Origin: Calocera cornea HHB12733
Taxonomy: Eukaryota; Basidiomycota; Dacrymycetes; Dacrymycetales; Dacrymycetaceae
Assembly (NCBI GenBank): GCA_001632435.1
Contig: KV423918.1
Coordinates: forward strand, 343,417 to 407,416
Direction of reading: 5' to 3'
Length of the DNA: 64,000 nucleotides
The notes under the pieces were generated by a model. It did not search any database. It saw nothing but the letters and a program-made list of their open reading frames with translations, and was not told the origin of the DNA. This document shows positions 4,715 to 32,386 of this stretch, piece after piece; positions within the stretch are counted from its first letter, which is position 1; each line of letters opens with the position of its first letter. The translations under genes were made by a program, and so were the position numbers.

Positions 4715-7700
4715 CTAGTCCCACCCCGTTGCCAGCCTTGTCGAGGCACTGCCCGCCGCATTGGATCCAACGTTGAGGGTCGCCATGTCCTGGATGAATA
4801 CCGGTTCGGCGGGGAACATCGGTGCGTCCCATCGGATGTCCCGCGGTATCTCCCTTTGCGCCTGAGGATGCACCGGGTATTCTTCAAGGAAGACGTCGAA
4901 ATTGCATTGCATTTGGCTCGAGTAGGTGAACGTGGGCTGTCCAAAAGCGTCTGTTTCCCCGCTGGCGCCGGCGGACTGATACATTAATCCTAGCGCTTCA
5001 AGCAACTGTCGATCCCCCACCGGTTCGACATTGGAAGGGACGTAATGGGCTGGCGGTGGAGAGCTGTTCCGTAGCCTGAGCTCCCGTGTTTCAGGCCGGG
5101 AGCCGAGGCCGGTCGCCTCAGGAAGGGGAGGCATCCTTGGAGTGAAGTCCAGGTTTTCCGGGATGACGCCAATGGGCTGATCACGTGGGTCCGTACTATC
5201 ATCGCCCTGAGACCCGCGAAGCAGCTCTTCAATCGTCATGTGCAAATCTTTGGAGGCTTCATTTGGTGGGACTGTCGTATGATCCGACATGATCACCACC
5301 GCGCCTTCCGTCGGTGAAGTTCCGGACGAGCCTGGAACACGCGAAGGTGTTGATTCGAAAGAGGAGGGCGTTGGCCCCGAACACTTGGGATGAATGGGGC
5401 TCGAGGGCGCTTGTCGGACGGTATTGTGGAGTGCGTCCTGATGGGGGGGGCTATTTCCGTCCGTGGATGAGGTCGGTGGTCCAGCTGCTTGTCCGGGCGT
5501 TGTGTACAGTGCAAGAGAATATGCTGTGCTATTCTGACCTGACAGTGAGGGTCCACTTGGATCGACCGGCGTCTGCGGTATCTCGTGTTCCCCGTCGTGA
5601 GTAGGCGCGAGTACTGTCCGGGAGAGTTCGTCCGTAGCAGAGACCCCCCGCGTCAATGACCTACTGGCCGCCGTGCCGTTTGCAGCGACTGTGCGCGCTT
5701 TCTTGGGCGGCGGACCATCAAGACTTTGATGGAGAAGATCCTCTGCCTCTGTGGACCGCTTCCTCTTCGTTTTCGACAGGGCTTTACGTTTTCCGGTCGA
5801 TTTTCTTTTGGCCGTGTCCGCCCTATTGAACGAGAACTGGAGAGAGAAGCCGTGCGGGAGACCTTTATGTAGCTGCTGTCGTGTCGTGCTTGCATCGCCG
5901 ACACGGTAGAAACCATCGCTCAGCTTGCACAGGTGCTGACGCAATTGGCCCTGTTCATCATGGTCAGCTACCATATGACAGCGTGGAGTCTACGCAGACG
6001 CACCCGCCAGTCCCATTTTTTTTCTTTCGGCACATCCTTCAACCCGTCCAACCTAACGTATTCTTTCAGTGTTGGCCAACGTTCCATGCATTTTTGGTAG
6101 ATCTCGCTCAATTCGATCTTCTTATTCGGGTGACCCATTATCAACGTCTGAAGGATACGTGAGTGGGTGGTTGGGAAGCTGTGCACCCCATTAGTTTCTA
6201 GAAGCGGCCCAAATCCCCAGAGGTCTTTGGGTGGCATGTCGTGTACGGCTTTCCAGTAGTATGGGGGATATTTGCCATCGCGGGATTCTTGAACACGCAG
6301 ACGGAGTTCTCGGTCCCATTCTTCCTTCGTCGTGGGATTTGGGAGTAGCGGATAGACTCCACAGCTTTCACGCTCCTCTGCAGACGTGGCCTGCGAGGCG
6401 TCTCTCTCGCTAATGTCCGCCCCCTTAGCTTCCGGCTGGTACGGTAAAGGCGCGGGTGATGTATGCGCCATGGCCAACTTGAACTGGTCAGCTGCTGACG
6501 GGGAGGGCTCTGGCCCCGATGTCGAAGGTACAGGCTCCGATGTCGAAGGTACAGGCGCCGACATGGTTTCGGGCCGAGTGTGGTTTGTGATTACTCGAGG
6601 CTGGTACGATGTTCCTGCTGAGTCGGTAGGGGCGAAGTTTCGGGAGGGGCCAGATTCTGCATGCAGTGGAAGACCGCCCATTCCCTGTGCGGGGTCACTG
6701 AACGAGAGGTATTGAGGGGGTATGATAGGCGGAGGAAGCAGAGTGGTTGATGGAAGAGTTTGATCCCGCGTTGCTGTCATGGGGTAAGAAGGAGCGAGAA
6801 GCTCCACGTGGTGAGACAGAGCAACGGTCGATGGCTCCCACGGGCTCTGCTGCGTTATCACACCAGGCCCCTGAGGCGATGCACCTAGCGTGGGGATAGA
6901 GTTTGCAGGGGCGAAAGTGGCATTGCTAGGTGCTAGAGCAATCGGGGGCACTGGGGGCGGTGGTACTCTGCGACGGCGTCTTCTTCTGGGCTGAAGCTTC
7001 GCCATATCACTTTCAGCACGGGCCCACTGCTCATCCCGTCAGTTCATGCCAGTATAGAATTGTGGCAGACTCACTATGCCGAGACTGATCTCAAGATCCT
7101 GCCTGGAATCTCTCGCGTGCGCATCGGTCACTCCGGTCACTTCAGGCCATTCCGCAAATGGGGCCATATTCTGGGCGGGATGTAAGGGGGGCCAAAGAAT
7201 TGCATACTGAACACTGACCGGCTCGAACAAGGGCGGCACTGCTGAACCCATGCCAGGTGGAATCGCCCCATTCCCGAACGCATCCACTGTCGTGTTACTG
7301 CTCCCGACAACTTGTACGATCGCATCGCTCGGGATTGCGCAAGCACCCCAAGGGGTGGGCGTCGGCTCACGATCACCAAGCAACTGGAGGAGGTGACTGC
7401 TGCTGGGGACATCGACAGTCGGCATCGGTAATGATTCAGGCGCAGCCACAATTGGAGGTAGCACGTCGCCAAAACCGCTATTCTGTTGCAGGCCGGTGCC
7501 GAAGTAGTTCTGCGTTGAGGAACCAGCCTGCCTGTCAAGCTCGGCGAGGGCATCGAAGAGTTGTTGCTGCTGCCATGCCGCTGTAGGATCAACTTCATCC
7601 CGAGGGGCAGCAAGTAATAGTAGCGCGACAGAAATGATAGTGGATGGAGGCAGGGTTGGAAGGTCGAAGGCAGGCGGAGAGTTGTAGGGCTTTGACGTCA

Positions 7701-23860: not shown

Positions 23861-24234
23861 CTCAACTGTATTGGGATGTGTGAAACTACCCAAGAGCTTT
23901 TTACACCGTCCAGCAACGCGGTCTACTATATCGTTAGGTTGCATGCAGACCAAGTCTGCCAGCCATCGATGCCAATGATGTGCCGATGACGTGTTTTTCG
24001 TTCATCATCTCCATTCTGTATGATGTATCCATTCGCACTCGCAATGTCATTGCCCGTTCTTCAATGATGTGCATAATACATCACTTCTGCATCTGACACG
24101 ACTAATTGTTTTGCAGTGAGGCAGCCAATGTGTCAGGTTCTCACTCTGGAGCCAAGCATCAGAAGGCGGACCTGACTTGGGGGACTTCCAACCTTTGCTA
24201 CCGTTTAGAAACACGTTGCTTCCGCTCCCAATAG

Positions 24235-24281
24235 CGTCAGGGTATACGCGAGAAGGACACCGGAAGCAATTGGTGTCCTGG
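24235..24281 (+). repeat. Left 47-bp inverted repeat of the KDZ block
   Basis: It pairs with 31928-31974 in inverted orientation, differing at three transitions. It contains its own small hairpin, GGACACC and GGTGTCC around a 10-nt loop that holds GGAAGCAATT. Further GGAAGCAA copies follow inward at about 24301 and 24321. Confidence 0.85.
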
Positions 24282-24449
24282 TTGCACAGCCCGTGTCCCA
24301 CGGAAGCAACCAGACACATTTCGGAAGCAATCGGAGGCTAATCCCATTAGCGTCCGCTCAATTTTTCACGCCTTTTGCTTCTTCACTACCATCTGATTCC
24401 GCCATTCCGCCGGTTCCGGAGTTCCGCTGATTCCGGACCTGATTCGACA

Positions 24450-26874
24450 ATGCTTCTTTTGCACCTTGTCTCTGCACTCTGGCAACATGGCATTGCACTA
24501 GGCAATGTTACAGTTCAAACTATGATCCATTTCATGGTGTTGGTCACCCAATTCCAGCCTCTTATATCTCTGGTTGCTTGTCTTGACTTGAACCGGCCGG
24601 TCTTGATCCTACCCACCAATGTTACTGCCTTCCTTATGGAAACACTTGGTTTGGATCAGGAAGTCATTCATCTACTCTGGACCACTCTGCTGCCTGTTGT
24701 CTGGCAACAGGATCGACCTGGACATGAGCCTCAGCCATTGCCATTTACGGATCCCGTCCCAGCCATTCTTTCACATGGACCCTCACATGACCTGCATAAG
24801 TCTCTTCCTCACATATCAGTGCAACTTCTCATCTCCTCTGCGCTAGGTGTGGAAGAGTTCCTTCCACCTGTTCAAACATGTTTCCAAGCACTGTGCCAAT
24901 CCCCCAGTCGACTCACTGTTGCAAGAAGGCATGAAGCCCATTACTACACTGTTGGCAGAGGCATTCTTCCTGTCTACATTACCTCTCTTCGCTGCCGAAG
25001 TATGCTTTCTTTCTATGAACTTGATCACTTGATTCACGTCTTCCACACAGGCTGTGAAACCACCTACCACCTCAACTATTACAGACGCAAAGACTCCAGT
25101 AACATTGTTCATCGACACTACTACTCTGGACAACCTCAAGTACTTCAGGCCGAGAGTCATGTTCTAGTAGATGCTGCACTTGCTCATCTTTTTCGCTCCT
25201 TGCTCTTCCATTCTCAGTAAGTCAATACCCATTCCCGGAATCGGCGTATTTCCGGAAGCGGCGGTTACACGGCCAAAACCGCGATTCCGGATGTGTGGCT
25301 GATCCGGAATCGGCGTTTCTATGTGCAAACCGCTGGTTCCGGGATTGCGCCGATTCCGGAATACCCTTTCATAGTACTCATGCTGTTACAGGACAAGTGG
25401 CCAAGCAATGGAACGGATGTATACAGATGTCCTTGCCTCAAGTACATCCAACAATGGGAACCGGCCCACCTTAAGGCGCACATACCTGTGGGACACATTC
25501 TACCTTGATGCACTATTGCAACATCACGATGAACAAGGAACATCTCTCATCCTACCTGAGAACCCGGCTGGTGCAAAACCTTGGGGGGCCCAAAGGGAGC
25601 GGATTAAGGTGGCCCTACAAGAGCGCAACATCTTTATGGCAGGAACTGGACAGGAGTTCTATGCACATGCATGTGACAGCTGTGTGCGCATCACGGAACG
25701 CAATGGTGTCCCTGGTGAGCATGTATTGCTTTCTGCAATGTCACCGACACTCATATCAATAAGTGACACTGCAGGCTGCTGTAACTGATGGTGTAGCCAT
25801 TGGTCATTCCTGCTGCTCTGTTCACAACTGCCATGGTATCCTGCCCTCTGTCACTGCACGCTTCTGTGAAGAGCACAAGGCCCTCAACGGAATCTGTGCT
25901 ATTTCCGACTGCAACAAACCCGTTCAGGCCACCAAGCTCACATGCAACAATCCTGCACACCAGCAAATGCAAGAAGAGCGTTATCAGAAAGGCAAATCTA
26001 TGTTCAACCTCGCACAGCGCCTGGCCAAATACACACAATCCACCACACCGACCATATTCAACACCGGTACTTCACTCTCTTACGCCGATTCCGGGGTACC
26101 GGAATCGGCGGTTACAGAAGGTTACGCCGTTTCCGGGCTCAGCAACGATACCGACTCGCTCTTCCCCAATACTGACAACAATGGTCTTGAGGGCTTTCAA
26201 GGTGTTCAAACACTCCTCAAGGAAGCCAACCTTCTGTGTGATGGCAAAGGTGCACTTGGCAATCAGACCTTCAAAGCACGCTTCGGCCGATCTTACACCC
26301 ATAATGAGCAACTCATAGTCCGCCCTTGTGGTATCATTGTGGCCCGGGCTACATTCTATGGTGCAGAGTCTGTCTCTTCTGTTGCAGTAAGTTCATTTCA
26401 CCCTCTTTAGCGCTCCTGACTAACAGAGTCACTCAGGATATGCTTCAAGCTGTCTTCCCAACCAAAAACTCAGTTCCCGACATTCTCTTCTATGACAACA
26501 ATTGCCACCTGCGTCGTCATCTTAGGGCTCAACACTTGCACCATTTTGATGACATGGGCATGCCAGTCGATGTCTTCCACTTCAAATGCAAGCATAGCGA
26601 GAAGGACGACTATTGTGGACAACACTGCAACCCCCTCCTCTTCCCCGACATCTATGATGCAGAGTCAAAGACATGGTTCTTCAACTCCTCGGCAGCGGAG
26701 CAAACCAACGCATGGCTCAACAGGTTTTTGCCTATTGTGCATGACATGGACTCGGTCTGTTATGATTTCTTTCTTGATGAGATGATCAAGGAGCACAACC
26801 GCTTTGTCACAAGAAAGCTTGAGGACCAAGGCAAGCATCCCTTCTTGCAGCCATCGGAATGGCTCCAAAAGTAG
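24450..26874 (+). CDS. CxC5/CxC6 KDZ-transposase family protein
   Basis: Five exons: 24450-24999, 25051-25216, 25392-25714, 25764-26386 and 26437-26874; coding length 2,100 nt, 699 residues. A CxC5-like cluster is assembled across the first intron (PPVQTCFQALC, RGILPVYITSLRCRSCETTYH, HYYSGQPQVLQAESHVLVD). A CxC6-like cluster follows (GTGQEFYAHACDSCVRIT, AAVTDGVAIGHSCCSVHNC, ARFCEEHKAL, CAISDCN). The C-terminal KDZ part has THNEQLIVRPCGIIVARATF, LFYDNNCHLRRH and NSSAAEQTNAWLNRFLP...FFLDEMI. The DNN and AEQTN blocks match two acidic transposase positions; I could not place the first Asp, so catalytic competence is open. Intron 25217-25391 is 175 nt and packed with the CCGGAANCNGCG motif. The ATG choice follows the first conserved residues. 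Confidence 0.8.
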
Positions 26875-27084
26875 ATCCGGAAGCGGCGGTTTCCGGAAAC
26901 GGCGTAATCCCGAAGTGCATCGGCTTTACGGTACCAGGAACCACCAGAAGTTTCAGGAACCAGCGGAATCTACTTAGGGTCCGGAAACAGCGTTACAAGG
27001 GTCCATTATATTACCATTTTATTGCATTTTGGCTGTGACCGCGCCAGCCTGAAAATTCCTTTACCATTGCAGCCACCTTCCCAA

Positions 27085-28733
27085 ATGCTGCCACGCAACA
27101 AGCTTATGGTTGAGGGCATCCTGCAATACTGGGATGCCCATCCTGAGCTCATGAACTGTACCCGCGACTATGCCAACACTTTGTTCTGCGCCAGAGATGG
27201 TTGTGGGTTGAAGTTTACCAAAGTGGCTGTTGCCCGCAGTGATGAAAATTGGGGATCTTTGTGGACCAAGGTGTGCCCTCCTAACCTTCCAACCATCTTC
27301 TTCTGCTAATTGTAGTACCACAGTGTCCCTTTGGCCATGTGTTCCTCTGGGTCTCACAGAGTATGCCTTCGGACCAGCAAGCAGTCTTCCAGACCATTTA
27401 TCAAGGCATTGAACCCACATCACCTGGAGATCCTGGTTTCTCAGGAAGACCATCTCCATGGCATAATGGAGTTCCTGTGGGCGCTTTCTCTCGGCCCTCA
27501 GAAGGTCATACCCCAGTTAAAGGGTCCGGAACCGGCGGTTACTCCGGAATCGGCGGAAGGAATAGCAACCGCGGACCACTCCCCCCCAAAAAATCAGCGG
27601 CAGTCACTCCAACCCCTATTCGCGTCGGTAAACCACTTGACAAGGATTGGGCAAAGCAATATCAGGGAGCCCGCATCCGTCATGAAGATTCCCAGCGGAA
27701 GAAGGATGAGAGCAGTGAGGCTGAGAAAGAGTTGGCTCGTTTGTTCACCGTTGTCATTTTGCAGAAGGTGAGCTTCAATTCGGAATTGGTGTTTCCTTAT
27801 AGTTCCGGACCCGGAAGCGGCGTTTCTATAGGTAGAACCGCCGTTCCGGATCCGGATTCAGCGTTTCTTGCCAAGGAACCGCGGTTCCGGATCCGGATCC
27901 AGTGTTTCTTGCTAAGGAACCGCTGTTCCGGACCCGGAATCAGCGTTTCCTTTGATGGTGTTACGCCGATTCCGGATTACACTCTTTGCGATCTATCACT
28001 GCAGTCCAAGCACTAACGGTTTACTTAGGATGGTGAACCTATTGAGCTCCCCAACCTTGTGGCCAAAGGCAACCCACCCAACCTTCTGACTGACATGAAA
28101 GACTGGCTTCCCTCTGTTATTCAACGCATTGGTGCGGTCTGCAAAGTCAACACGGAGTCCAATGCATGGATGGTACCAGTACTTGACAAGAGTCGCCAGA
28201 AGTGGGTGGATATGGGTCCCGGCCAAAAAATCAAGGTGCAACACAATGAGCGCATTGTTTTGAGTGCTGGGGGTGTCTCCACCTCGTCTCCGGAGGTGGA
28301 GGAAGAGGTCTCACTTCTCCATCTCACGCCCCGCCCCAAACGACCAAACCCGAGTCCAGTGGAGCAACCCACCACCCCAAGCAAGAAGCCACGTGCAGCC
28401 TCAGTACTCACCATCTCATCTGATGATGAAACAGACACTCCAATTGCACTGGAACCTTTGCGCTGGAAACAATCTGATTGGCCCGGTAGGGACCAATTTG
28501 TTGTGGTTGCCGCCGGCTTGGCCGAAATACACAAACTGCACCAAGAGCACCCCAGAACTGCCCTGGTGAAGCTGTTTGCCACTGTTTTCCCGGGTAGAAC
28601 AGTAAATGCAAAAACACTCTCCCGTCACTATAACGCATGGAAGAAGGCCAGCAGCAACCTCGATAATTGGGCCGAAGCTTTCCCATCAGGACTATGGATC
28701 CGTTGGTACTCGACTCGCACAGACCACAAATGA
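27085..28733 (+). CDS. Hypothetical protein with GRF-like zinc finger
   Basis: Three exons: 27085-27270, 27324-27767 and 28029-28733, encoding 444 residues. Across the first intron the protein reads FCARDGCGLKFTKVAVARSD, then ENWGSLWTK and CPFGHVFLWVS. This C-x4-C, aromatic, C-x2-GH and F.W arrangement resembles a GRF-type nucleic-acid-binding zinc finger. The middle is Pro/Gly-rich and includes motif-encoded GSGTGGYSGIGG. The C-terminal region has KKPRAASVLTISSDDETD and a DWPGRDQFVVVAAGLAEIHK stretch I do not recognise. Intron 27768-28028 is 261 nt and carries about eight copies of the element motif. It is transcribed in the same direction as the KDZ gene, 210 nt downstream, so it may be element cargo or an accessory transposition factor. 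Confidence 0.65.
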
Positions 28734-29134
28734 GGTCTTTCTGGGAGTGAAGGAGCATACTGGGGGCTCGTGGGGCAGTAGCTAGAAATGCCCAAGTGGT
28801 TTGGTTTTGGTAGATAGTTGGTGGAAAGAAAAAGTGTGAAAACAAAACCCGGAAGCGGCGTAAGTCCGGAACCGGCGTAACACTGCAAACGGCGTATGCA
28901 GCGCCCGGAATCAGCGTATCTGATTCCGGATTCGGCGGAAGCAACCGGGTGCCGTTTCTGGGCTTCAGCTTTTGCGCTTCCGCTGCTTCCGGAATTACGC
29001 TGATTCCGGGCATATGTGTCAGCAATTGCTTCCGTGCCGCGTGGTGACCTCCACGTCGTCGCCCCTGTTGCCCGTTCGCGCTCTCCTCCTCTCATCTTCC
29101 ACCCAAACTATCCCCTCTCCCACTCTCTGTCAAC

Positions 29135-29348
29135 ATGGTCGAAACCCGCGCCCAGAAGAACGCTGCCGCTGCAGCTCCAGCTCGTACAACCGCCGCTTCC
29201 GGGCGTACCGCCGCTTCCGGACGTCGGCCCGCTGCGCAGAGCAAGGGCAAGGGCAAGGGCAAGGCTGACACGTCGTCGGACGACTCGGGGGAGAATGAGA
29301 AGGATGACGAGGATGAGGATGAGGATGAGGATGAGGATGAGGAGGAGG

Positions 29349-29381
<33 letters not shown>

Positions 29382-29885
29382 TGATCATCAAGGCGGAGTC
29401 CGAGTACGAGTCGTACGAGGATGAGGAGCCCGAGGTGTTCAGGAAGATGGGCACGGATATCGTGAGTCCGGAAGCGGCGGTTACCGGAATCAGCGGTTCT
29501 GACATTCGATGCAGGATCTTCAAGAGACCGGTATCAAGGTTGCGCATGGCGGCCGCAAGTTGCCCCCCGAGGAGGACTGCGATCCGATGGAGGTCATGTG
29601 CACTCGCTGCAAGGACAGCAAGCTCATGTGCTTCAAGGAGCGCTCGTCGAAGATCAAGGCGTGCTGGCATTGCTACAATGCCGCGAAGGCTTGCAGCTCC
29701 GCGCCCAAAGGTGAGTCCGGAATCGGCGTAAACCCGGAAACCGCGGTTCTGACATCGTATTAGATCGACGCGCAGGCCGCAAGGTGGGCCCTCCAAAGAC
29801 CCGCGGACGCCTTCAAAAGGCGATCGATAGCATCGACAAGAAGATCGCCAAGCTCGAGAAGCAGTTGAAGAAGGCACCCGAGTAG
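29135..29885 (+). CDS. Small Zn2Cys6-type protein A
   Basis: Three exons: 29135-29461, 29515-29710 and 29764-29885, encoding 214 residues. Basic, Ala-rich start, then a long Asp/Glu run (about residues 55-85). Exon 2 encodes CTRCKDSKLMCFKERSSKIK followed by ACWHCYNAAKAC, giving spacing C-x2-C-x6-C-x10-C-x2-C-x6-C, the fungal binuclear zinc cluster pattern. The C-terminus is a Lys-rich helix (KAIDSIDKKIAKLEKQLKK), probably a coiled coil. Both introns are exactly 53 nt, and apart from splice signals consist of the element motif. Predicted nuclear and DNA-binding. Paralogous to the convergent gene at 30433-31665. Confidence 0.75.
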
Positions 29886-30117
29886 TGGACCCGGAATCGG
29901 CGGTTGGAGATCCGGAATCGGCGTAAGAGCAAAACGGGGGCTCGAGGGGCGGTAGATAGAAATGCCCATATGAAGAAGTGTAATGCTAGCTAGTGCGGAT
30001 GAAAGAAAAAGTGTGAAAAGGCATTGTTAAGAGTGTAAAAGGGTGAAAAAAAAAAACTCGCGCTTTTTCGTGGACTTAGACGATAATTTTTTAAAATAGT
30101 CAAAAAAGATATATTAT

Positions 30118-30182
30118 GACACGACCGGGAATTGAACCAATTCATGAACCAATACACGTCTTAACCACTAGACTAAGACCGC
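30118..30182 (-). other. tRNA-like sequence with Pol III boxes
   Basis: On the minus strand, box A TAGTCTAGTGG and box B GGTTCAATTCC stand 27 nt apart. The D-arm pairs perfectly (GTCT with AGAC). The acceptor and T stems do not pair well, and the anticodon loop lacks U33, so this is not a working tRNA. A run of six T follows at 30102-30107, a Pol III terminator. A tRNA-derived SINE head or a decayed tRNA are the best readings. Confidence 0.55.
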
Positions 30183-30432
30183 TTTATAATTTACTAGTGC
30201 TGTAGCGTTGTATAAGTACGGTGTATAGTAAAGTTACGCTGATTCCGGATAGACTCTACCCGGAATCGGCGTTTCCGTAACTCCTTCTAAGTTCAATTTC
30301 CCATGTTTGCACACACTATTCAGATGGATTTTCACACGTTTTCTTTCAACCGCACTAACTATCCGTACACTTGAGGATTGAAACAACTATCTACTGTCAT
30401 AACGGCGAACCGCCGATTCCGGACCACTTCCA

Positions 30433-31665
30433 CTACTCCTCATCCGTATCCCTCGCCTTCCTCTTCAACTCCACGAGCTCCTTGCGACGGGCCTTCAGCT
30501 CCTTCAGCTCGGCACGGATCATCGACTTCGTCTTCACCGTCTTCTTGTTGCGAGCGCGGCCATCTATGAAATAGTGGGTCAGTAACCGCCGAATCCGGGG
30601 AACCGCCGTATCCGGCTCACCTTTCAAGCCCGTGTCGCAAACCACCTTGTTATTCTTGCAATGCCAGCAAGACTTGGTGGCCGCGCCGAGCTTCTTGAAG
30701 CAGAGAAGGCGGCGTTCTCTGCAATACTTGCACTAGAATAAAAGTTAGCTAAGTATAAACGAATCATAAAGAAACGACTTACGCGCACAGGCAAGTTCAC
30801 CGAATCCTCCTCGCTCGGTGGCTCACCACCCCACTTCGACTTCTGGATGCCGGGCTCGTCCAAGTCCTAAAAGAATGTCAGTTACGCCGATTCCGGAAAC
30901 CGCTGTATCCGGGGAAACACCGTTTCCGGGACTCACCGAGCCGTTCTCCCTGATCTTCCCATCATCAGACCTGGCCGCCCCCCCAGGCGTGGATGCCTCG
31001 TCGTCGCTCGGTTCAGGCGTAGGCGACGGGGGAATAGTCTTACGCGCAGCCTCGCGTCGCGCAGGGGGGGGCTTGGACGAGGGGCGAGGAGTGCGGCTGG
31101 AGCGGAGGGGGGGCGAAACCGAGCGGCCAGAGAGCCCGTCGAAGAGCGGATGACGTTCGGGGACGTCGTAAAAGACGCCGTTCTTCACGTCGTCGTCCGT
31201 CTTGCAAGTGGAGGCAGGCTCCATGTTGCCAGCGCGAGGATGCTCCTAGAAACAATGGTTAGAACCGCCGTATCCGGGAACCGCCGGTTCCGGACTCACT
31301 GTCCACGCCAGCCAGAGCATGCGGGCTCTGTCCCCGAGGTACCTGACCTCCTCGAAGGGCCAGGTGCCGATCTGGTCCGGATAGTCCGCCCAGAAGCTGA
31401 CAACAGCTTGCTGTCATGATTGTCAGTTAGGGTTATGGAGCAGGGTTGTTGGACTCACCCTGTAGGCACCCAGCTGGTCCTCATCCATGGCCCAAACCGG
31501 GCGGTGATCCGCACGCGACTCCCACTGCATCCCAACAGCCTTGCGTCTATCGCGCATGACCGCGAGCTCGGCCTTCGTGCGCTGGGGCCCGGAACCGGCG
31601 GAACGCCCGGAACCGGCGGTTGATCCAGTGCCAGTGCGGGAGGGTTGGCGAACGGCGGGCGGCAT
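30433..31665 (-). CDS. Small Zn2Cys6-type protein B
   Basis: Six exons: 31459-31665, 31300-31410, 30937-31245, 30783-30866, 30621-30732 and 30433-30563; coding length 954 nt, 317 residues. The N-terminus contains motif-encoded GTGSTAGSGRSAGSG. A conserved-looking ADYPDQIGTWPFEEVRYLGD follows, then a Ser/Pro linker. The zinc cluster is CKYCRERRLLCFKKLGAATK, then SCWHCKNNKVVC, with the same C-x2-C-x6-C-x10-C-x2-C-x6-C spacing as protein A. The tail is a basic helix (RAELKELKARRKELVELKRK). Introns 31246-31299, 30867-30936 and 30564-30620 consist largely of the CCGGAANCNGCG motif; 31411-31458 and 30733-30782 do not. Predicted nuclear. It is the longer relative of protein A, arranged tail to tail. 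Confidence 0.75.
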
Positions 31666-31927
31666 GTTGACAGATGATTTCAAAGTTGAGCAGAGAGAGA
31701 TGAGGGCAATGAGGAGAGGGGAAAGGTCGACGAGGACGAGGGTTGAGTCAGCGGCCTCGTGTTGAGCACATGGTGCACGGCCACTCGGCCCGCAGGGTTT
31801 GCGCCACCATGATTGGCTACACCCGGAATCGGCGTAATTCCGGAACCGGCGGAACATTTGAAACGGAATCAATTACTACTACGGAAGCAAATATACCTCC
31901 GGCGGAAGCAAAAAAGGCTCCGGTGTC

Positions 31928-31974
31928 CCAGGACACCAATTGCTTCCGGTGTCCTTTTCGCGCATATCCTGACG
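31928..31974 (-). repeat. Right 47-bp inverted repeat of the KDZ block
   Basis: Reverse complement of 24235-24281 with three transition differences, so the two copies are 94% identical. GGAAGCAA words lie just inside at about 31881 and 31905. Beyond 31974 the resemblance to the left flank stops. Confidence 0.85.
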
Positions 31975-32386
31975 GTACTCCTAATGTAACGCGCAATGTA
32001 TCTGGCTCCGATCACCTGCACACTTGCATGCATTCCGCACATTCCACCTGCGCTCGCCAGCAAACCCACGTCTGACGTACTGCAGCCCCTGGGCTACTAG
32101 GCACACTTCCCTTCAGTTGTGTGAATCAACAGTAGGACAGCCTCGGGCAGATCCAGCGGAGGCCAAAGTGCTATTTATCACCGGTGGGGCCGAAAGGACC
32201 TAAAGCTTGGAGTGAGGCACCTCATCGGCTGCAAGGCGGTACAGGATCCGGCTGACGACACAATAAGGCAGGCGCTTGCGTATATCGACTCGACTCGACT
32301 CGGCCGCCCAAACGCACCGCTTACGACGCTGCGTATCTTATCAACCGTGCACACCATATACTCGCTGATACCTGCGCGCCGAGACC

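Follow-up and report, generated by a model that had tools for sequence, protein, structure and literature searches.

A transposon-wide array of short CGG-containing sites in Calocera cornea and its candidate readers, zinc-cluster-like proteins encoded by the same element

Why would a transposon carry one short motif dozens of times through its spacers and introns, and which protein would read it? This question is raised by a stretch of 64,000 nucleotides from Calocera cornea HHB12733 (assembly GCA_001632435.1, contig KV423918.1, positions 343,417 to 407,416), hereafter the window, in which copies of a motif, CCGGAANCNGCG, are packed into a single block. The block lies inside a KDZ-type transposon of 7752 nt (window positions 24229..31980), which we call element A, of family A, and which carries four genes, g1, gX, g2 and g3. 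The original prediction took the motif for a recognition site that is maintained and tied to one element, as opposed to a tandem repeat in decay, and named a transposase, a zinc-cluster protein or a modification or silencing system as possible readers. With slightly better than even confidence, we favour the explanation that the array would be an address for a DNA-binding protein encoded by the element itself, most likely g2 and/or g3, and used for self-activation or anti-silencing.

The window contains 40 exact CCGGAANCNGCG sites, all within 24408-31851 and none outside, whereas 100 dinucleotide shuffles of the window contain a mean of 0.24 and a maximum of 2. Allowing one mismatch adds 10 sites within the block and 6 outside it, and allowing two adds 12 within and 89 outside. 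The motif is thus sharp. We take the 40 exact and 10 one-mismatch sites as the dispersed array (24408..31851), in agreement with the predicted fifty or so copies in both orientations, in four genes and with a sharp limit. The sites have ten fixed positions, most commonly in the form CGG-AAN-CGG, and occur in both orientations as single sites or as pairs, with stretches of hundreds of bases between them. Another site lies at most 22 nt away from 39 of the 50, and the spacing of same-strand neighbours is 16, 17 or 18 nt in 14 cases. A simple tandem repeat in family A is ruled out by the spacing, the orientations and the presence of coding sites. No known RNA families or tRNAs were found in the window.

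Genome-wide, exact CCGGAANCNGCG matches number 213, against 110 for a control pattern (the motif read backwards). Copies of element A contain 128 of them, and the 85 found elsewhere are background, since the control alone gives 110. A stricter close-pair pattern matches 42 times, with no match for its reversed control, and 41 of the 42 are in copies of element A. An even spread through the genome is thus ruled out by these counts and by the confinement of close pairs. As expected of the element-bound site that had been predicted, enrichment is confined to copies of element A, and a similar density in other regions was not found.

We built gene models for element A from splice signals and from comparison with a sister family, B, described below; all four are open. 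According to these models 20 sites lie between genes, 21 in introns and 9 in coding sequence, so that the non-coding 2719 of 7753 nt hold 41 of the 50 sites and the coding 5034 nt hold the rest. (The database model P0001 omits a g1 exon segment with three sites, and these three may thus be intronic.) The intronic sites are found in 7 of the 13 introns, with none in the other 6. The gX intron at 27768..28028 (forward strand) has four. Five introns of g2 and g3, 53-70 nt long, consist mostly of a 5′ splice site, at least two sites, a branch-point-like sequence and a 3′ splice site. On the forward strand, these are g2 intron 1 (29462..29514, 53 nt) and the g2 intron behind the zinc cluster (29711..29763, 53 nt), with two sites each. 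On the reverse strand, they are the g3 intron behind the zinc cluster (30564..30620, 57 nt, two sites), a 70-nt g3 intron (30867..30936, four sites, two of them overlapping on opposite strands) and a 54-nt g3 intron (31246..31299, two sites).

Two of the four genes encode proteins that may read such sites. The first gene, g1 (24450..26874, forward strand; 699 aa, five exons), is a KDZ-type transposase gene whose product matches the Pfam families CxC5 (96.8 bits, cut-off 26.9) and CxC6 (84.2 bits, cut-off 27.5), both KDZ-transposase-associated domains, and the database protein model CALCODRAFT_426677. No KDZ catalytic core family is among its Pfam matches at E up to 10. For gX (27085..28733, forward strand; 444 aa, three exons), no Pfam family matched the exons, which were searched separately; the cysteines and aromatic residues around its first intron (27190-27350) are reminiscent of a GRF-type zinc finger. 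The g2 protein (29135..29885, forward strand; 214 aa) has a long acidic tract and a cysteine cluster, C-x2-C-x6-C-x10-C-x2-C-x6-C (29599-29694), and g3 (30433..31665, reverse strand; 317 aa, six exons) has the same type of cluster (30637-30732). In both proteins the cluster is followed by a basic, helix-prone C-terminus. The Zn2Cys6 pattern is C-x2-C-x6-C-x5-12-C-x2-C-x6-8-C, which g2 and g3 fit with a middle spacer of x10, as do the clusters of family B and of a gene on contig C53 (below). Since the Pfam cut-off is not reached, we call g2 and g3 Zn2Cys6-like rather than members of that family. Among 26 fold matches in the PDB, all weak, 22 are Zn2Cys6 domains; a zinc-cluster profile gave no match to PDB sequences, and no relatives of g2 and g3 were found in a large protein set. 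Passages of PMC5559640 describe Zn2Cys6 proteins as typically reading CGG triplets, in pairs, and Pho7 as having a 12-nt site. Our proteins resemble the Zn2Cys6 factors treated there (Gal4, Put3, Hap1, Leu3, Pho7) in cysteine spacing, in the basic helix-prone C-terminus and in the repeated CGG triplets of the presumed target, and differ in lying below the Pfam cut-off, in being transposon-encoded and in having no relatives in protein searches.

Related elements carry different arrays. Using the last g1 exon as a query, we obtained 25 genome matches and read the surrounding DNA at 12 of them. Four of the 12 are family A. Two others, on contigs C1 and C72, constitute family B: they are 98% identical to each other over 5.8 kb, and in the last g1 exon their identity to family A is 72% and 61%. 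Family B lacks the A motif, with none in the slots compared below. These elements are rich in AACCGG, of which C1 has 113 copies over 8.6 kb and C72 has 66 over 5.8 kb, many of them spaced by 10 or 12 nt, compared to 24 times in the 56 kb of the window outside element A and 11 times in element A, where 7 of the 11 are within A sites. Genome-wide, AACCGG pairs number 110 versus 29 in the control; of the 100 listed, C1 accounts for 50 and C72 for 25. The C1 transposase match contains stop codons, so family B is partly decayed, and the C1 sequence has many unreadable bases. A further copy, C185b, is 79% identical to family B, more decayed, and has a weak word signal (16.4 versus a shuffle maximum of 12.9). 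Family B also contains an imperfect palindrome of about 700 nt (78%) flanked by AACCGG arrays (7229-7924 of L042, on C72), with a counterpart on C1.

We divided the elements into 25 corresponding slots, taking the transposase side from C1 and the g3 side from C72. Not included are g2, the part of gX past its first intron, and the spacers next to either. Arrays are present in both families in 9 slots and in neither in 16, with no disagreement (Fisher 4.9e-7, an optimistic value, because the arrays were already in view when the borders were drawn and few coding slots would be expected to hold any). Among the ten introns compared, 4 have arrays in A and B alike and 6 have none in either, and introns of about 50-70 nt occur among the filled and the empty ones. 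For example, the g1 intron at 25217..25391 (forward strand) has five A sites, and its family B counterpart has 18 AACCGG. The three g3 introns listed above were also part of this comparison. Thus, the same slots are used in both families, and the motif in them is swapped. Together with the confinement to one element and the use of introns and spacers, this swap supports the predicted element-bound recognition site over a decaying tandem repeat.

A third motif is found on contig C253, in a zinc-cluster gene that is open in the part read and has three introns there. Introns 1 and 3 contain four CGGCA each, with a period of 9-10 nt, and intron 2 contains none; g2 intron 1 of element A corresponds to one of the filled introns. 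CGGCA has a density of 17.3 per kb in 2.6 kb of C253, versus 3.4 per kb in the window outside element A. Arrays of three in a row number 33 genome-wide versus 12 in the control, with 15 on C253. As the last g1 exon gave no transposase match on C253, this family, D, is known from one gene and its arrays only. Its cluster also fits the Zn2Cys6 cysteine pattern. On contig C53, another zinc-cluster gene (about 4991-5160 of L055) has three CGGCA with a 9-nt period in the intron behind the cluster; word scoring found no element-wide array on this contig, and the intronic copies are perhaps a relic. When introns are compared across families (including both g2 introns and the 57- and 54-nt g3 introns), the intron behind the zinc cluster contains no motif but its own family's in 5 of 5 genes (g2, g3, and those of family B, C253 and C53). 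CGG is part of the motifs of families A, B and D, each of which encodes Zn2Cys6-like protein. Of the readers named in the original prediction, a zinc-cluster protein therefore appears to fit best, given two such proteins in element A and the CGG shared by the three motifs.

The boundaries of element A were drawn from the sequence common to several copies and from comparison of their flanks. The element has terminal inverted repeats of 50 nt (92%), at 24232..24281 on the forward strand and 31928..31977 on the reverse strand. A copy on contig C185 is full-length and 98% identical to that in the window, copies on C89 and C15 are 100% identical over 5062 nt, each ending at a contig end, and C241 and C275 contain right parts. 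An 8-bp target-site duplication is supported by two cross-contig pairs of flanks matching at 8/8 and a third at 7/8. It was not seen at the window's own two flanks, which agree at 2/8, or at those on C185, which agree at 4/8. The left copy in the window (24221..24228) matches C241 at 8/8 and the window's right flank at 2/8, and the right copy (31982..31989) matches C89 at 8/8 with an offset of one base. It thus seems that halves of two insertions have been brought together in the window, through misassembly or recombination, and the two sides of the window may not be genomic neighbours. The window and C185 copies differ at 155 positions, 54 of them in two 250-nt bins starting at 29979 and 30229 (29979-30478), which adjoin a 49-nt inverted repeat (29976-30024 / 30324-30372). 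A second word, CGGAAGCA, has 6 of its 9 places in element A near the two ends; in the window it occurs at 248-797, 24217-24322 and 31882-31941, and near the KDZ copy on C52 it forms a cluster with a spacing of about 20 nt (3234-3487 of L049). Several KDZ families may share it as a word for recognition of their ends.

The arrangement of the sites suggests that each family displays its own sites for a DNA-binding protein that it encodes. In element A the reader of the CCGGAANCNGCG sites would be g2 and/or g3. The sites would be placed where the sequence is little constrained (ahead of start codons, in the spacers between genes, within introns and in a few variable exon segments), and, being scattered, they would let the protein coat the whole length of the element. 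Between sister families, the whole array would have been exchanged for another CGG-containing motif, with protein and sites changing together. The coating by the array, the set-wise change between families and the element's own zinc-cluster proteins together point to self-recognition. Most likely, the protein would activate the element, or counter the silencing of its chromatin, in a sequence-specific way, as VANC does for VANDALs, which are Mutator-like plant elements (kin to MULEs). To our knowledge, it is mainly in Arabidopsis VANDALs that a protein encoded by a transposon is known to act against silencing with sequence specificity. From sequence, we infer that g2 and/or g3 bind the motif and that this binding counters silencing. 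We prefer anti-silencing or chromatin opening to promoter activation because sites are also found within introns and behind genes, and to a role in transposition because they span the whole element and CGGAAGCA sits near both ends. There is probably a silencing to escape from, because CpG has been lost in families A and B (observed/expected without their own motifs 0.73 and 0.59, with 0.31 in C185b, versus 0.99 for the remainder of the window) and the genome contains methyltransferase-family matches, on C104 and C177.

Several observations weigh against this explanation. First, we looked for extra conservation of motif sites in the C185 copy and found none, the sites having mutated at least as much as the rest; this comparison of copies thus gave no support to the original prediction of a maintained site. 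Second, CpG loss bears no relation to arrays: the ratio is 1.06 on C253, which has arrays, 0.61 on C52, which has none, and about 1.0 on C238 and C234. Third, the clusters fall short of the Pfam Zn_clus cut-off of 21, with 7.2 bits for g3 and the g2 piece not listed.

The alternative that survives best, though we consider it unlikely, is that the arrays are bound for transposition, for instance in element folding or end pairing, by the g1 transposase (CxC5/CxC6) or by gX. The two cysteine-cluster domains of g1 speak for this, as does the divergence of g1 along with the motif between A and B, and transposases bind repeated sites in many elements. Sites within introns, behind genes and across the whole element are less readily explained in this way, and CGGAAGCA, with 6 of 9 places near the ends, is a better candidate for end recognition. 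We also read five other KDZ copies, on C238, on C234 and the end of C7 (99.9% identical) and on C52 and the start of C7 (99.7% identical), which by these identities represent three families. None was seen to have an element-wide array: in the four copies tested against shuffles, word scores are at the shuffle maximum or barely above it (C238 8.4, C52 8.4, C7 start 8.0, C234 12.1 versus 11.8). The zinc-cluster pattern has no match in the five copies within the stretches fetched, which may not cover the elements in full.

A second alternative, which we also judge improbable, requires no reader at all: short repeats could spread passively by slippage or gene conversion wherever sequence tolerates them. 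The nearly tandem arrays of family D and of the C53 intron (9-10 nt), the general avoidance of coding sequence and the unspared sites of the C185 copy would all be expected. However, the A and B sites are single or paired, in both orientations and hundreds of bases apart, those of A with ten fixed positions, and introns with arrays in A have them in B too, and those without lack them in both, despite the different motif. We give little credence to a reader supplied by the host, whether a zinc-cluster factor or a system that would single out the element for methylation or silencing. Such a system could be suspected from the CpG in the motifs, the methyltransferase-family matches and the CpG loss in A and B, but three families carry three different motifs in one genome, the A motif is at background outside element copies, and a silencing target should be lost rather than multiplied. 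The modification or silencing system that was originally suggested as reader is thus less likely, the motif differing between element families within one genome. Finally, action of the sites in RNA, for example in the splicing of small introns, is hardly probable: 11 of the 12 sites in the small g2/g3 introns are in sense orientation, but larger introns have sites in both orientations, g2 and g3 have their coding sites in antisense orientation, and 20 sites lie outside genes altogether.

Returning to recognition of the element by its own protein, we propose, tentatively and with somewhat less than even confidence, that a KDZ clade has a self-addressing code (its own zinc-cluster protein, dozens of sites in fixed slots, with some introns made up of little else than sites, and families that diverge in both together), an independently evolved fungal counterpart of VANC that is perhaps used beyond KDZ elements. 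In this regard, contig C88 was considered as a fourth KDZ family and rejected, as its frames look, in our reading, like a Gypsy retrotransposon. Its 10-kb stretch (L052) contains CGATTCGA 14 times versus 1.04 expected (score 23.4, shuffle maximum 12.7) and a frame, 6724-7143, with two CX2CX6C groups; C88 is possibly a second case of a dispersed motif with its own reader. If our explanation is true, families A, B and D would offer a natural series of protein-site pairs in one genome for studying how specificity and target change together, and the short sites and small proteins would make tests cheap. A second, unrelated case, in fungi, would also mean that self-anti-silencing by transposons arises repeatedly.

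How does this arrangement compare with known systems? In maize Spm/En, the element's protein TnpA reads a 12-bp motif that occurs in both orientations in subterminal sites; here, sites are not confined to subterminal regions but extend over 24408-31851 of 24229-31980. Cryptococcus KDZ1-KDZ3, as described in passages of PMC12810828, resemble element A as KDZ elements with terminal inverted repeats and target duplications of 8 bp (in KDZ2 and KDZ3, 4-8 bp), and differ in having CxC1 domains and longer terminal inverted repeats; arrays go unmentioned there. Searches of the open-licence literature brought up no description of motif arrays in KDZ elements. Fungal DNA transposons that carry TET/JBP dioxygenases, with a possible anti-methylation role in the account excerpted from PMC12730594, are similar in having an extra gene that may act against methylation; that gene encodes an enzyme and is not accompanied by a motif array, and no TET/JBP gene was seen in element A. 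(Tet_JBP matches on C49 and C100, at 33.9 and 28.7 bits, are below the family cut-off of 34.9.) The closest likeness is to VANC and the VANDALs. In passages of PMC5735166, VANC sites are located in introns and in intergenic and terminal non-coding regions, and they differ between related elements. Similarly, element A has an element-specific motif in non-coding regions including introns, and related families have other motifs. With the system as portrayed in parts of PMC5735166 and PMC10398659, it shares a short motif through the non-coding parts of one family, related families with other motifs and, presumably, an element-encoded reader. The differences are the fungal KDZ-type elements, the zinc-cluster-like protein, the GC-rich CpG motifs and the additional coding sites. 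Our proposal is that the Calocera system works like VANC, judged by its arrangement, and it makes no claim of kinship between the proteins. The arrangement is closely parallel to that of VANC and the VANDALs, whereas protein, superfamily and kingdom are different.

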